Shown here: positions 43,951-49,188 of the stretch, one piece after another
Position numbering within the stretch: position 1 is the first letter of the stretch
Layout: the number at the start of each line of letters is the position of its first letter
Source: Candidatus Hydrogenedentota bacterium
GTDB taxonomy: Bacteria; Hydrogenedentota; Hydrogenedentia; Hydrogenedentales; Hydrogenedentaceae
Direction: 5' to 3'
Length of the DNA: 64,000 bases
Assembly: GCA_026415215.1 (NCBI GenBank)
Contig: JAOAHN010000065.1
Location: forward strand, 1-64,000
Notes under the pieces: model-generated
What the model saw: the letters and a program-made list of their open reading frames with translations, nothing else
What the model was told of the DNA's origin: nothing
Databases searched by the model: none
Made by a program: the position numbers and the translations under genes

Positions 43951-46236
43951 TTATTTTTCAGGATTCAAATTTGAAGTGCTGATTTTTACATCTTTGAACC
44001 AAGGGATTTTTTGGGATTCAAAGGGGACAAAGTCAAGACTATCTGTAGGGTCTGTCCCATAGTGAATTTCTACCCAATCGCTTACTCCGTCTCCATCGGT
44101 ATCTCTACTCGTTGGGTTAGTGGCATAACCGTGTGTGCTCATTAACTCATCGTAGTCTGTCAAGCCGTCATAGTCAGAATCTACCTTATTGGGGTCGGAT
44201 GGAAATCCGAAAATCCCGTTGATTTCATCGTAGTCTGATATACCATCTCCGTCAGTATCAGTGTCATTATCTTGAATAACTAACTCAAAGGATAGGTTAT
44301 TTTCGGCTAATCTCAAACATTGGGGTGACTCAAGGGTTAGTTTTATTTTTTTCTCTGGTTCAGTATGAGTGTTATCAATTATTTGTATAGTTACATAACT
44401 TTGGGTTGAGTTGGGAGTGAAGTTCACCGTGGTTGAACTGAGGGTATAATCTATACCACTGGAGGCATTTTCAGTTTCTACTTTGAGTGTCACTTCTCCG
44501 CTATTACTCCTTGCAGGGCTACTGAGTGTCAGCATAACATTTTTTGTATAATTCTGCTCTTCAATTACGAAGGAGGTTTCTGCAAATTTAACGGCTGGTG
44601 GTTCCAAAAAATCTTTCGCAAGTCGATATGTAACATCGAATCTTCCGAAGTAGTCTGGCTCTGTTGGGGTATTACAAGATGCTCCACCGCCCCATAGTTG
44701 TCCTATGATTTGTTTAGTATTCGTGAGTAGTAATGGGCTACCAGAGGAACCAGGTTCAGTTGTTCCTTGGTCCCAAGTTACTTCGTGATAATAGAGAGAG
44801 TAGGGGTTGTCATTGTTAGTTTTTCTTCCAAAGCTTATTCTTTTATAGCTTCCACTGGGATGGTGTATATCAGTTACTTGCGTACCTATAGCAAGAATGG
44901 CGGTGGTCCATCCAACGAATACTGAGTCTTCCGGGGGGGAATTTCGCATTCTCATTAAGGTGAAGTCATTACCGCCACCATAATAGGCACTTCCCCCCAT
45001 TCCTACAAGGTAATCTGCACCTCCTGTAGTTCTTGGAACACTTGAGAGGCTCGGCGGAGTGCCATTACAGGTAGATGTTTGATAAAACCAATAGAATTCC
45101 ACGGTGTCCGCTCCCCTATATCCACTTTGTGAGTTGACACAGTGGTTTGCAGTTAATATATATGGAATCTGAGTGCAGGGGTCATTATCGGCAATTAATG
45201 TTCCTGTGCAGAAGAGAGCGTATGGCTGGCTTACTACTCCCAATCCTACGACTCCCTTCCCTATTTCTGACCAATTGGGATAGCAAGTGAAATCTAAATT
45301 ACAGCTTCCTGCTTTTGATAATATCTGTATAGGATCCTGGTATATTCCAATTACCTCGGATATTTCAAAGTCTGCTTCACTTATACTACTATCAGGTTCA
45401 ACTCGGCATATTACTCTGACTTTGTCTGAAAAACAAGTGGGTAGCCAATTAGATAGCGAATGAATGGTATCAGCATTTAATGGCCCTATGCACTGCGTAT
45501 CGGTGCGGATCGGAATTATCAAAAAAGAGACACTATTAGACATTTTGGAGAGGGGTTGAATGTTTATCCTCATGCCTATGCTGTGTGGAAAGTGAATGTC
45601 TAATGCCCATATAAATGACCCGTCGGGAAGAATCCTCCAATTCCCATGAGATGTATTCTCTCCGATTACTATAATATCTTCTGGAAGCTTCTCAATAATC
45701 CCTATTCTATAAATGCCTTTTTCCCAATTAACTATGGATTTACTATCTTCTTCTATCAATTTTTCTTTCGCTAATGGGGGCAGGGTTATAAGTTCTACAC
45801 CATCTAACCTGATGAATTTTTCTATTTCCTTTTGGGTAAGAAACCTCTCCTCTCTCTGTTTATAATGTGGAGAAACGAAATTCTCTGATGATACGGACAC
45901 CTCCTTAAATTTAGATAAATCTTTATTTGTTATACCCAGTTCGTCTTTTTCTTTCTGGGATAGAAGTTTTCCATTTAGATAGTAAAGTTCGTAATGTTTG
46001 TTTGTAGAAAGTTCCCTGATTATTGCCCCTTTGAGTATAGAATTTTCATTTTTAGGTGCTCGTTCGTCCCATAGAGCGTGAATTTCATATCCTTGTTTTT
46101 TTGAGTTCATTAAGTCTTGCAGTTCTATTGGGAAATTAGGTTCTCCGAAGAGAGTGTAACTATAGGTAAGAAGAATTATGGATGAGAATAGGTATAGAGA
46201 CCTGTAATAGGATTTTTTCACACAGCCCATCAACAT
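43951..46236 (-). CDS. Secreted lysyl-endopeptidase-like serine protease with Calx-beta and thrombospondin type 3 modules
   Basis: 761 residues. Signal peptide within the first ~31 (YLFSSIILLTYSYTLFG). Residues 32-290 are a unique N-terminal region shared with the neighbour. The protease domain (about 325-535) has His in TANHC (~364), Asp in NDFTLM (~422) and Ser in EPGSSGSPLL (~497); IHHPSGSYKRIS and GQLWGGGASC match Achromobacter lysyl endopeptidase. Then a Calx-beta domain (~545-660) and three Ca2+-binding TSP type 3 repeats (TDTDGDGISDYDE, VDSDYDGLTDYDE, RDTDGDGVSDWVE). Likely an extracellular, calcium-stabilised protease. Nine bases downstream of its paralogue. Confidence 0.85.
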   Translation of the reverse strand: MLMGCVKKSYYRSLYLFSSIILLTYSYTLFGEPNFPIELQDLMNSKKQGYEIHALWDERAPKNENSILKGAIIRELSTNKHYELYYLNGKLLSQKEKDELGITNKDLSKFKEVSVSSENFVSPHYKQREERFLTQKEIEKFIRLDGVELITLPPLAKEKLIEEDSKSIVNWEKGIYRIGIIEKLPEDIIVIGENTSHGNWRILPDGSFIWALDIHFPHSIGMRINIQPLSKMSNSVSFLIIPIRTDTQCIGPLNADTIHSLSNWLPTCFSDKVRVICRVEPDSSISEADFEISEVIGIYQDPIQILSKAGSCNLDFTCYPNWSEIGKGVVGLGVVSQPYALFCTGTLIADNDPCTQIPYILTANHCVNSQSGYRGADTVEFYWFYQTSTCNGTPPSLSSVPRTTGGADYLVGMGGSAYYGGGNDFTLMRMRNSPPEDSVFVGWTTAILAIGTQVTDIHHPSGSYKRISFGRKTNNDNPYSLYYHEVTWDQGTTEPGSSGSPLLLTNTKQIIGQLWGGGASCNTPTEPDYFGRFDVTYRLAKDFLEPPAVKFAETSFVIEEQNYTKNVMLTLSSPARSNSGEVTLKVETENASSGIDYTLSSTTVNFTPNSTQSYVTIQIIDNTHTEPEKKIKLTLESPQCLRLAENNLSFELVIQDNDTDTDGDGISDYDEINGIFGFPSDPNKVDSDYDGLTDYDELMSTHGYATNPTSRDTDGDGVSDWVEIHYGTDPTDSLDFVPFESQKIPWFKDVKISTSNLNPEK

Positions 46237-46245
46237 ATTCCCGTT

Positions 46246-47970
46246 TTATGTATTTAACTGGTTCCAAATTAATTGGATATCCGAGGCGTTAAATTTTCCG
46301 TCTTTATTTAAATCGCAAGATGGCTCGTAAATTATTCCCAATGATGAGTTCACTATGTAAGTTAGGTCTACCTCGTTTACTTCGCCTGAATTATCTATAT
46401 CGTAGTTTACCTCAGATACAGGGAGGAATGGTTCAAGGATTGGGTAGCTTACATCGAACCTTCCAAAATAATCGGGCTCGGTCATATTGTTACAACTTGC
46501 AGTGCCACCCCATAGTTGACCTATAACGAGACCCGTAGATGCCCAAATCAATGGGGAACCAGAGGAACCTGCTTCAGTGCTACTTTGATAATACTTTACC
46601 TCATGGAATCTCTTTAAAGGTTGTAAGTTTGCTCCTCCATAGTACGGGCTTCCACCGTTAGTTGTATTGCCGAAAGATATATGTTTGTAGCTACTCCCGG
46701 GATGGTGAATGACAACTACATCTGTTCCTAAAGAGATGGGATAGTTAGTATAGCCAAACTCAAATATGTTATCGGGAGGAGGGTTATTAATTTGTAGAAG
46801 GGTTACATCGGTTCCTGTTTCTAAAGGCGAGGTGGCAAGTAACTGAGCTCCCCCAGTTGTTATTGGCACTGTAGATATCGAAGGCACTATGCCTTTACAT
46901 TGGTCAGATTGGTAGAACCAGATAAATTCCAGTGACTCCGCTTTAGCTTGGTCAGATACACAATGATTTGCTGTTAGGATTAAGTTGGAAACAGTAGTTG
47001 GGTCATTGTTGCTGAGAACACTTCCCGTGCAGAATATTATGTACTTATGGCTAATGGTCTCGAGACCTAATACTCCTGAGCTCATAATGTCCCAGGGTGA
47101 ATAGCACATAACATCTTCATAGCAAGAAGCTACTTTTGTAAGCTCCTCAAAGGGGTCTTTTAATATGCATCCATAGGCCATAATTTCAATAGTGTGAAAG
47201 TCCGAACTTGAAGAAGATGGTTTGATGTAGTAGAGATGAGCAATGGGTCCCTTAGCAAGAGGAGTCCATACTTCTTTATTGTAGAAATAAACTACTCTGA
47301 AATCATCTTCTGCTTCGCCTTTGATGATAATTTTGTGCTGTGGAGGAAGCATACCGTCCACTCGGAGTTTCAATCTTATTCCCAAGGCGTTGTTAGAAAA
47401 GAATCCTATCGTTTTTATGTCCATCCTATCTATCTTTTTTGCGTCACATTTAATTTCTGAAAATTTGCTAAATATCTTTATCTTTTCATCTAAATCTTTA
47501 ACTTTTCCTATTACCTTGCCCTCTTTGGATAGAGAGAACTCTACTTCCCACTGTTCTATTTGTGGAAGGGTAATGTAGTTACTCGGGGCAGGCATAAGAG
47601 AACAAATTTTGTCATAGGTAGTATCGAGCTGTGCAAGTTTATTGGGCAATTTGTCTTTTTTGAATTTGCTATTTAGTGATGGAGGTATTTCAATATACCC
47701 AGGATTCCAATTTTTTGGCTTGAGTTGGACGAGTGATATATCATCTCTACTTAAAATTTTCCCTTCGGGGGTTATGTAGATTTCTTCATATTTGTTGGTA
47801 TTAGTATTCAGAAGGAGTATTCCTTCAACGAAGCCATTGGGAGTTTTTTCTTCCCAAGTAAGTTGCAATTTAAACGGTGGGTTAGTATATCCTAATTTCT
47901 CCAGAGTATTTTCTATTTCAGCAGTTTGATGGTGAAGTAAGAGCAAAGAAATATGTAAAATCAAATACAT
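46246..47970 (-). CDS. Secreted lysyl-endopeptidase-like serine protease with dockerin-like C-terminus
   Basis: 574 residues from ATG 47970, chosen because it has AAGGAT upstream and opens a signal peptide (MYLILHISLLLLHHQTAE); a longer frame to 48075 would run into the divergent gene. The protease domain has His in TANHC (~332), Asp in GTDVTLL (~385) and Ser in EAGSSGSPLI (~471), and shares GQLWGG-ASCN and EPDYFGRFDV with the next gene. The C-terminal ~55 residues hold two EF-hand-like dockerin repeats (DIDNSGEVNEVDL; DLNKDGKFNASDI), a module that in other bacteria binds cohesins or anchors proteins. First gene of the protease pair. Confidence 0.82.
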   Translation of the reverse strand: MYLILHISLLLLHHQTAEIENTLEKLGYTNPPFKLQLTWEEKTPNGFVEGILLLNTNTNKYEEIYITPEGKILSRDDISLVQLKPKNWNPGYIEIPPSLNSKFKKDKLPNKLAQLDTTYDKICSLMPAPSNYITLPQIEQWEVEFSLSKEGKVIGKVKDLDEKIKIFSKFSEIKCDAKKIDRMDIKTIGFFSNNALGIRLKLRVDGMLPPQHKIIIKGEAEDDFRVVYFYNKEVWTPLAKGPIAHLYYIKPSSSSSDFHTIEIMAYGCILKDPFEELTKVASCYEDVMCYSPWDIMSSGVLGLETISHKYIIFCTGSVLSNNDPTTVSNLILTANHCVSDQAKAESLEFIWFYQSDQCKGIVPSISTVPITTGGAQLLATSPLETGTDVTLLQINNPPPDNIFEFGYTNYPISLGTDVVVIHHPGSSYKHISFGNTTNGGSPYYGGANLQPLKRFHEVKYYQSSTEAGSSGSPLIWASTGLVIGQLWGGTASCNNMTEPDYFGRFDVSYPILEPFLPVSEVNYDIDNSGEVNEVDLTYIVNSSLGIIYEPSCDLNKDGKFNASDIQLIWNQLNT

Positions 47971-48066: not shown

Positions 48067-49188
48067 ATGTTTCATAAGTTTTCTTACAATAAGGTAAGTA
48101 GAGTAATTATATTTCTCATCGGGATGTGGTTTAATTCTTTGTCCTTTTCAATAGAGCTTGGGGTAAACTACAGTTCCTCCGATGAGATGGAAATTGGAGA
48201 TATTAAATTCAAGTCTGGAAAGTATAGTGAAGGAATCTCAATTACCTTTGTCAAAGATAAAGTAAAACCATTTGTAACATTTTTGTTTTCACCGAGCCCG
48301 AAAGATAGTGAATTAGCAGAAGTGGAATTAGTGGGAAAGAGGATAAGAAATCCTGTATTTAAGGCAGTTTGTTATGAGTTAAAATCTGAAAATAGTAGAG
48401 TTGAGAGGGACTATTATTGGTTCGTATTAACACATCCTAAGATTTTTTTATTCATAATGAAGACTCCAATCATAGAGGTGCAGTGTGAACTAAAGGGCAT
48501 ATTTAACAACCTGCTTCTTGAGCAAGGTAAGTTAAGCACTGATGTAAATGGTGAAAAAATGATTGTGATACCCATCTCTCCGGAGGTTATAACTGCTAAT
48601 TTGAATGATGCATCTGATAGTCCTATGATAAAATTTGCTTCTCAGAATATAGAACAGAGCAAGATATACGGATTTATATTTTTTGTTTCGCCACCCATTA
48701 TGCCTAAACTTTATTATTCTCCATCTGATTTTGGTTTTGAGCATGGGTTTAGTTTCTCTATGGTTAATCCATATTCTCCATCATCGACTTGTGATTTTTT
48801 TATTCCTGAGGCGGACAAAGTTAGTTCTTTTAGGAGAGGAGAGTTCCTAATTTGGGGAAAGTTTTTATATCAATTAGGTGAATATGGACAATACAGTAAG
48901 CTTGTGATATTCGATATGTCTACTTTGTCATATAATAAAGAATCAATAAAGTGGCAATTGGCTTTTGACACTCCTTTTACGGGGTCAATTACTTTTAAAG
49001 GGAGATTGTCAAACATAGGTTCAGCAGTAATAAATGGTGTAGTAGATGAATCTCTAAAATATATACCTGTTAGATGTCGCATAGAAAAGGGAACTGCTAA
49101 GAAAGAAGAAATGGTATTAGATGTTCCTCAAAGAGAAGACTATCAACTGTATAGCGACATCTTACCCGAATTGAAAAAAAATCCCTAA
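48067..49188 (+). CDS. Secreted protein of unknown family
   Basis: 373 residues, not recognised. A signal peptide is likely (SRVIIFLIGMWFNSLSFS, cleavage near residue 28). The mature part is beta-rich with alternating hydrophobic and polar residues and only a few Cys (for example in KAVCYELK, EVQCELKG, SSTCDFF and VRCRIEKG), and no catalytic motif is visible. The ATG has no clear ribosome-binding site. It is divergent from the protease pair, sharing a 96-bp control region, so a joint role in secretion, inhibition or substrate binding is possible but unproven. Ends 10 bp from the convergent yqaA-like gene. Confidence 0.6.
   Translation: MFHKFSYNKVSRVIIFLIGMWFNSLSFSIELGVNYSSSDEMEIGDIKFKSGKYSEGISITFVKDKVKPFVTFLFSPSPKDSELAEVELVGKRIRNPVFKAVCYELKSENSRVERDYYWFVLTHPKIFLFIMKTPIIEVQCELKGIFNNLLLEQGKLSTDVNGEKMIVIPISPEVITANLNDASDSPMIKFASQNIEQSKIYGFIFFVSPPIMPKLYYSPSDFGFEHGFSFSMVNPYSPSSTCDFFIPEADKVSSFRRGEFLIWGKFLYQLGEYGQYSKLVIFDMSTLSYNKESIKWQLAFDTPFTGSITFKGRLSNIGSAVINGVVDESLKYIPVRCRIEKGTAKKEEMVLDVPQREDYQLYSDILPELKKNP

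Follow-up and report, generated by a model that had tools for sequence, protein, structure and literature searches.

A tandem pair of lysyl-endopeptidase-like proteases in Candidatus Hydrogenedentota, one of them with a dockerin tail, as a putative part of a surface peptidase set

Two adjacent genes encoding lysyl-endopeptidase-like proteases, here designated P2 and P1, were analysed in a 64,000-nucleotide stretch of DNA (positions 1 to 64,000 of contig JAOAHN010000065.1, assembly GCA_026415215.1; hereafter the window) from a Candidatus Hydrogenedentota bacterium, whose draft genome comprises 3.33 Mb in 146 contigs and is 93.6% complete. Both genes are on the minus strand, head to tail, with a gap of 9 bp between them. 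We propose, with a probability of about 0.6, that they constitute a long-established gene pair, probably transcribed together, whose products are serine proteases secreted as zymogens, that P2 is tethered via its C-terminal dockerin, and that both belong to a set of peptidases acting at the cell surface. A preliminary description of this DNA, made from the letters alone, had reported two open reading frames (ORFs) for paralogous proteases of the lysyl endopeptidase type, with Calx-beta plus TSP3 in one tail and a dockerin-like pair in the other. The ORFs and their differing tails were found where they had been reported (Table 1), and the family assignment and the paralogy were borne out by Pfam, by the Protein Data Bank (PDB) and by mutual alignment, as follows.

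P1 matched the Pfam families Trypsin_2 (E value 7.3e-7), Calx-beta (2.2e-7) and TSP3_bac (9.1e-9), and P2 matched Trypsin_2 with an E value of 1.2e-11. In a sequence search the closest PDB entries for both proteins were the lysyl endopeptidases 1arb, 4nsv and 9omd, the matches spanning the mature part only, plus Calx-beta in P1, and a fold search carried out with P2 only also ranked lysyl endopeptidases first. The two proteins were 33% identical over 529 aligned residues and 47-48% identical within the protease part. His371, Asp423, Ser505 and Asp535 of P2 were invariant in a 16-row alignment of P2-type enzymes, and Asp535, which is the Asp of a PDYFGR motif kept in both P1 and P2, aligned with the pocket Asp225 of Achromobacter protease I (API; number counted from the alignment). 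The chymotrypsin-like fold, the His/Asp/Ser residues and the pocket Asp225, as recognised by similarity, place P1 and P2 in the lysyl endopeptidase family, and the Asp225 counterpart suggests that they would cleave after Lys. API (1arb, 4nsv) is the best PDB match and shares the catalytic residues; unlike API, P2 and P1 have dockerin or Calx-beta/TSP3 tails and form a tandem pair, and the API His210 position (counted from the alignment) is occupied by Trp in the Hydrogenedentota enzymes. The source genome encodes a third relative (contig C29; 536 residues, 29% identity) with no visible Calx-beta/TSP3 or dockerin tail.

The distribution of the pair was followed in 60 genomes of the order, the source genome included. 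Relatives of P2 at E <= 1e-10 were present in 46 of them, again counting the source genome, and loci were fetched from 36 (40 stretches from 35 other genomes, in addition to the window), giving 57 protease ORFs altogether. In at least 15 of the 60 genomes, drawn from seven families, a gene of the P1 type was immediately preceded on its strand by one of the P2 type; the two genes overlapped by exactly 4 bp in six genomes, and two P2-type genes preceded the P1-type gene in G004. Several genomes had only one of the two types, and G001 had a P2-type plus merely a distant second match. Maximum-likelihood analysis of 65 rows placed all 15 paired P1-types within one 16-row clade (support 97/94) and grouped the P2 of the window with congeneric P2-types (100/99), the P2-type rows overall not forming one resolved clade. 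Because the pair occurs in so many genomes and families, in a constant order and with its P1-types in one clade, it is not a local duplication, a recent event of this kind being rejected by the tree; the comparison indicates instead an ancient pair that families of the order have in common. The duplication with subsequent divergence of the tails that had been suggested at first therefore stands as to paralogy and falls as to its local character.

The long N-terminal region of both proteins, initially regarded as undescribed, turned out to be common to proteases of this type. The ~150 residues preceding the mature part matched the pro-regions of lysyl-endopeptidase-like proteases of other phyla in four hhalign sets, with probabilities of 98.7 (Bacteriovoracaceae), 98.8 (Lysobacter/Comamonadaceae), 99.3 (Bacteroidota) and 99.9 (pooled), against 0.2 for a reversed control. 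A Lys located 3-8 residues ahead of the first mature Cys was found in 48 of 53 Hydrogenedentota sequences, where 4.5 were expected from the preceding 100 residues; it was present in 26/26 P2-types and 15/18 P1-types, and in 48 of 73 sequences from other phyla (12.8 expected; six further sequences unscored). Judging from these matches, the N-terminal region of P1 and P2 is the family's pro-region, which usually ends near a Lys.

The tail of P2 scored 31.1 bits against Dockerin_1 (E value 2.7e-7; gathering score 22.9) and only 12.3 bits against EF-hand_1 (E value 0.14; cut-off 25.4), and a generic EF-hand tail was rejected on these scores. Its two loops, DIDNSGEVNEVD and DLNKDGKFNASD, are acidic or polar at positions 1, 3, 5, 9 and 12, which we take to be the calcium positions of dockerins. 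With two calcium-loop repeats and a score over the Dockerin_1 gathering score, the tail is classified as a type I dockerin, as had been noticed from the letters. Of the upstream enzymes in tandem pairs, those of 8 genomes (G000, G002, G003, G005, G013, G017, G021 and G022) had a dockerin as their tail and those of 7 (G004, G018, G047, G049, G054, G055 and G059) a C-terminal hydrophobic helix, called by mean hydropathy; the helix-tailed enzymes had one or more Cys before the helix, their tail consisting of Cys, membrane helix and basic end. The downstream P1-types kept Calx-beta, mostly with TSP3, and ended in an hxhPWF motif (the tail was truncated by the contig end in G004 and G059), whose counterpart in the P1 of the window lies 13 residues from the C-terminal end. 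Because tandem P2-types have either a dockerin or a membrane-helix tail in the same place, the dockerin is probably a substitute for a surface anchor, and the exchange would represent two ways to hold one enzyme at the envelope. The C-terminal modules had earlier been described as swapped; the tails do differ, but those of the paired P1-types are stable and it is the P2-types that alternate between dockerin and membrane helix. Dockerin matches were found in 3 of the 84 protease ORFs from the best 80 loci in named genome records, two from Hydrogenedentota and one, weak (2e-4), from Flavobacteriales. The PWFK end was also considered as a genome-wide sorting signal and rejected, since its single tested form gave 21 exact matches in the 60 genomes, 4 of them known P1-type ends, versus 19 for a reversed-pattern control.

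A cohesin partner encoded elsewhere in the genome had been predicted from the dockerin, and candidates were found; the combination of an absent cohesin and a generic EF-hand tail, named beforehand as refuting this reading, was not observed. One cohesin (C62:11895-12254, E value 1.9e-12) was over the Pfam cut-off, a second one (C37:828-1214, E value 1.4e-3) was below it, and a third, located where C62 ends, was seen with a local cohesin profile and not with Pfam. The order of genes on C62 was a small dockerin protein, a dockerin protein of 429 residues, a cohesin plus a pair of ELLR repeats, and a cohesin ORF truncated by the contig end. The start of C37 resembles the continuation of this cut ORF and is followed by a cohesin protein whose C-terminal part consists of a hydrophobic helix and a basic end. 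The end of C62 and the start of C37 overlap by 442 bp at 95.2%, and the contig break inside the cohesin operon is perhaps due to strain variation; the same five genes are intact in G003 (L137). When 20 cohesin loci of the order (L137-L156), chosen for their matches and not randomly, were inspected, 17 had at least two neighbouring cohesin ORFs and 13 of these 17 a dockerin ORF as well (E < 1e-5). In the operon loci and the loci of the source genome together, a C-terminal helix was present in 36 of the 49 complete cohesin ORFs, and two cohesins were seen in none of the 54 cohesin ORFs. The cohesin family PF00963 was detected in 51 of the 60 genomes at E <= 0.01 and the dockerin family PF00404 in 48 at E <= 0.001. 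The numbers of dockerins and cohesins were correlated (Spearman 0.55 in the 60 genomes, 0.62 in the 40 that were >= 90% complete), and so was their presence or absence (Fisher p 0.012, 60 genomes), relatedness being uncorrected. Cohesins were present in 15 of the 16 genomes with a dockerin-tailed Lys-C-like enzyme, barely above the base rate of 51/60. Members of the genus (G001, G002) also encode PASTA-repeat proteins (L216, L221 and L223) in which a cohesin is directly followed by a dockerin, and which could be self-assembling.

Dockerins in the source genome were carried by P2, by an M14 carboxypeptidase (C75), by the 429-residue protein and by small secreted proteins. The M14 domain was recognised with an E value of 1.8e-65; the dockerin of this protein scored 19.3 bits in Pfam, below the cut-off, and was counted over it in the genome scan only together with its neighbours. 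The Pfam run on these ORFs, with a small ORF of C52 outside it, recovered S1 and M14 enzymes plus proteins that lack an enzyme domain, and no plant-wall enzyme. In 30 related genomes 88 dockerin matches were located in 87 ORFs, 34 of which had a peptidase domain (M4, 13; M14, 10; Lys-C-like, 7; other S1, 2; C13, 2); the remainder comprised small proteins, proteins of the operon, proteins combining cohesin and dockerin, and others, including one FGE-sulfatase-like and one CotH protein. The assessment covered 56 of the 87 ORFs, 27 by Pfam and 32 by peptidase profiles made locally from P1/P2, L023/L167, L157 and L164, with 3 in both, and no glycoside hydrolase or plant-wall enzyme was found in the 27 run against Pfam. 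Thirty of the 87 were first labelled as other, and some of these were re-assigned by reading: four to the small family (L184, L137 6575, L175 and L140 9395), two to operon proteins (L137 7130 and L145 3625), four to 5'-cut ends (L178, L188, L190 and L195) and, following the Pfam run, two to C13 (L214 and L224). The last two, both from G010, are Peptidase_C13 proteins with the dockerin match near the C-terminus, an extra peptidase class seen in one genome. The small family comprises secreted proteins of ~160-200 residues whose dockerin lies towards the N-terminus and whose end is conserved (for example NAPP, HAPP or SPP), often encoded beside cohesin genes (L020 9918-10424; L022 4159-4776; L137 6575-7066; L151, L192, L204 and others).

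In the mechanism that we propose, both enzymes would be secreted as zymogens, and each pro-region would be taken off at the Lys that immediately precedes the mature N-terminus, plausibly through self-cleavage or through cleavage by the partner enzyme. A cohesin operon located apart from the pair (C62/C37) encodes single-cohesin proteins, at least one having a predicted membrane helix, that would most likely hold P2 at the cell envelope, and in other families of the order the Cys/membrane-helix/basic tail would serve the same enzyme in place of the dockerin. P1, with its calcium-binding Calx-beta/TSP3 arms and its own C-terminal motif, may work beside P2. Cleavage after Lys would then be followed by trimming of the new C-termini by the dockerin-bearing M14 carboxypeptidase (with M4 thermolysins in relatives). 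Because the dockerin of P2 has likely cohesins encoded elsewhere in the genome, the system would be one for protein digestion at the cell surface and not a cellulose-degrading machine.

Several observations weigh against this proposal. A plain helix anchor in a diderm could leave the cohesins facing the periplasm, and the best-supported cohesin of the source genome, that of C62, has no helix. The helix tail presumably resembles the MYXO-CTERM type; NCBIfam gave no such model, and its C-terminal sorting-signal models had zero matches in six helix-tailed proteases and four cohesin proteins. The dockerin block of P2 was predicted at low confidence (predicted local distance difference test, pLDDT, 34-48), and the junction Lys was missing in 5 of the 53 Hydrogenedentota sequences. 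Among the 40 genomes >= 90% complete, the association between presence of dockerins and of cohesins was not significant (p 0.36), and cohesins are not tied to P2, because they are also present in genomes whose P2-type has a membrane tail. Finally, the family f5 departs from the arrangement proposed. Its genomes G020, G033, G039, G044, G050 and G058 have 10-64 dockerin matches each, and a sample of 20 dockerin ORFs was drawn from G020, G033 and G039 (picked from the table of matches, favouring those of less than ~1100 residues), of which 19 did not match any of the four peptidase profiles, the other one being M4. The commonest Pfam families in this sample were CarboxypepD_reg and propeller repeats (among the matches listed, 25 of 66 families), and f5 contributed eight dockerin-tailed Lys-C-like ORFs to the 57. 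Since most of the sampled carriers there are not peptidases, the dockerin is a wider surface tag in f5. Furthermore, when nine stretches were fetched for a re-check, proteins of ~960-1020 residues with 2-3 cohesins were found in G020 (L358), G033 (L363), G039 (L360) and G044 (L359), the only four genomes with at least 20 dockerins (64, 47, 25 and 20, respectively). Because of these proteins and of the non-peptidase carriers, tethering by single cohesins is not the rule everywhere.

LasB is a peptidase of the M4 family. As is proposed for P2 and P1, Pseudomonas protease IV (PIV) is a secreted lysine-specific endoprotease with an N-terminal propeptide, which is inhibitory, is cleaved off and is degraded by LasB; unlike for P2 and P1, neither a dockerin nor a tandem partner is mentioned for PIV in the sections of this source that describe it (PMC5493658). 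We tentatively advance a broader scheme, in which Hydrogenedentota would digest proteins at their surface with dockerin peptidases (Lys-C-like S1, M4 thermolysin or M14 carboxypeptidase), each held singly by one of the single-cohesin proteins of the conserved operon, many of which have a membrane helix. The Lys-C-like pair would be its long-kept endopeptidase unit, holding the enzymes together might aid zymogen activation as LasB does for PIV, and multi-cohesin scaffolds would have grown in dockerin-rich relatives.

It seems rather unlikely that the dockerin is instead a general surface tag of the phylum, carried by proteases in the same way as by unrelated secreted proteins and without any proteolytic complex. 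The abundance of dockerins in the six f5 genomes, with a single peptidase among the 20 ORFs sampled, would fit such a tag, as would the dockerins on small proteins without enzyme domains in the source genome; however, the frequency of peptidase domains in the 30 other genomes, compared with one FGE-sulfatase-like and one CotH protein, and the lack of glycoside hydrolases among the ORFs run against Pfam, argue against it. We consider it improbable that a planctosome- or cellulosome-like scaffold with several cohesins assembles the enzymes, in place of an individual anchor for each. The module types and the dockerin-bearing M14 carboxypeptidase are the same as in the planctosome proposal, in the part of it available to us (PMC6461901), the four f5 genomes do encode multi-cohesin proteins, and Pfam gave two-cohesin frames also in G005, G018, G022 and G043 (those fetched from the first three were not confirmed by the local profile). 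Against this, no multi-cohesin scaffoldin was found in the draft source genome, whose cohesins are in separate ORFs, nor was a protein with two cohesins seen at the operon loci, and the cohesin ORFs of the source genome showed no lamin-tail domain (LTD) in Pfam. That the dockerin of P2 meets no cohesin and acts as a calcium-dependent stabiliser is very improbable, because, plentiful as calcium-binding modules (TSP3, Calx-beta, EF-hand) are in these proteins, Dockerin_1 and not EF-hand was over the cut-off, cohesins occur in the source genome and in most genomes of the order, and the tandem orthologues exchange the dockerin for a membrane helix and not for another calcium module.

To our knowledge, cohesin-dockerin pairs outside cellulosomes are widespread and few have a known job; the mucinolysome of Limousia is reportedly a cellulosome-like complex whose substrate is mucin, a job unrelated to plant-wall degradation (PMC12997984). 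With the cellulosome itself, the Hydrogenedentota system has the dockerin and cohesin modules in common, and it differs in the lack of a multi-cohesin scaffoldin in the draft source genome and of plant-wall enzymes on the dockerin proteins examined. Peptidases on cohesin-dockerin modules have already been proposed, as far as the accessible parts of these sources go, for the planctosome (PMC6461901) and for Ca. Stygibacter (PMC8542988). In the hypothetical planctosome of Nemodlikiaceae (Planctomycetes), cohesin-dockerin modules are proposed to hold peptidases, an M14 carboxypeptidase among them, at the surface, as here; its described parts are an adaptor with both modules, a lamin-tail anchor and M12B (PMC6461901), in contrast to the proteins with one cohesin each, which frequently have a membrane helix, and the S1 enzymes (M4 in relatives) of Hydrogenedentota. 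A dockerin-bearing endopeptidase and exopeptidase (S1 and M14), which belong to the planctosome definition as given there (PMC6461901), are both encoded in the source genome; Pfam detected neither LTD nor Dockerin_1, which would indicate the lamin-tail anchor and the dockerin-cohesin adaptor, in its three cohesin ORFs. One relative, G032 (L231), combines LTD, dockerin and cohesin, the latter by the local profile. The cellulosome-like complex of Ca. Stygibacter (Cloacimonadota) likewise includes dockerin-bearing peptidases and, unlike the system found here, is described with one large multi-cohesin scaffold and glycoside hydrolases (PMC8542988, in the part consulted). No description of such a system for Hydrogenedentota was found in the open literature within the terms searched, and the present results would extend the proposal of proteolytic cohesin-dockerin systems to another phylum, with partly different peptidases. 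That one enzyme of a conserved gene pair carries either a dockerin or a membrane tail at the corresponding position makes the idea of the dockerin as a detachable surface anchor directly testable, and a conserved cohesin operon is available to test the dockerin against.

Table 1. Coordinates of P2, P1 and their parts in the window
Feature	Position	Strand	Description or basis
P2	46246..48075	-	lysyl-endopeptidase-like protease, C-terminal dockerin; start possibly 47970
P2 hydrophobic N-terminal start and pro-region, to Lys314	47134..47970	-	profile match to pro-regions of other phyla; junction Lys
P2 protease domain, residues 312-552	46420..47142	-	PDB matches, alignment
P2 type I dockerin (Ca-loop repeats DIDNSGEVNEVD and DLNKDGKFNASD)	46252..46404	-	Pfam
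P1	43951..46236	-	lysyl-endopeptidase-like protease; tail of Calx-beta and TSP3
P1 pro-region, ending at Lys308 before the mature N-terminus	45313..46131	-	profile homology; upper boundary approximate
P1 protease domain, residues 306-545	44602..45321	-	Pfam, PDB
P1 Calx-beta domain, residues 547-641	44314..44598	-	Pfam
P1 TSP3 repeats, residues ~659-732	44041..44262	-	Pfam, NCBIfam
P1 IPWFK motif	43993..44007	-	corresponds to the C-terminal hxhPWF motif seen in P1-type relatives

The longest ORF of P2 begins at 48075 and position 47970 corresponds to an internal ATG; both were kept as candidate starts, because the ORF from 48075 would overlap a divergent ORF that starts at 48067. The genes adjoining P2 in the window were common only to G001 and G003 among the loci compared, and they were rejected as part of the unit, since they were matched only in members of the genus. 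The divergent ORF (48067-49188, plus strand), encoding 373 residues, had zero matches in Pfam or NCBIfam, and it is retained beside P2 in G001 and G003.

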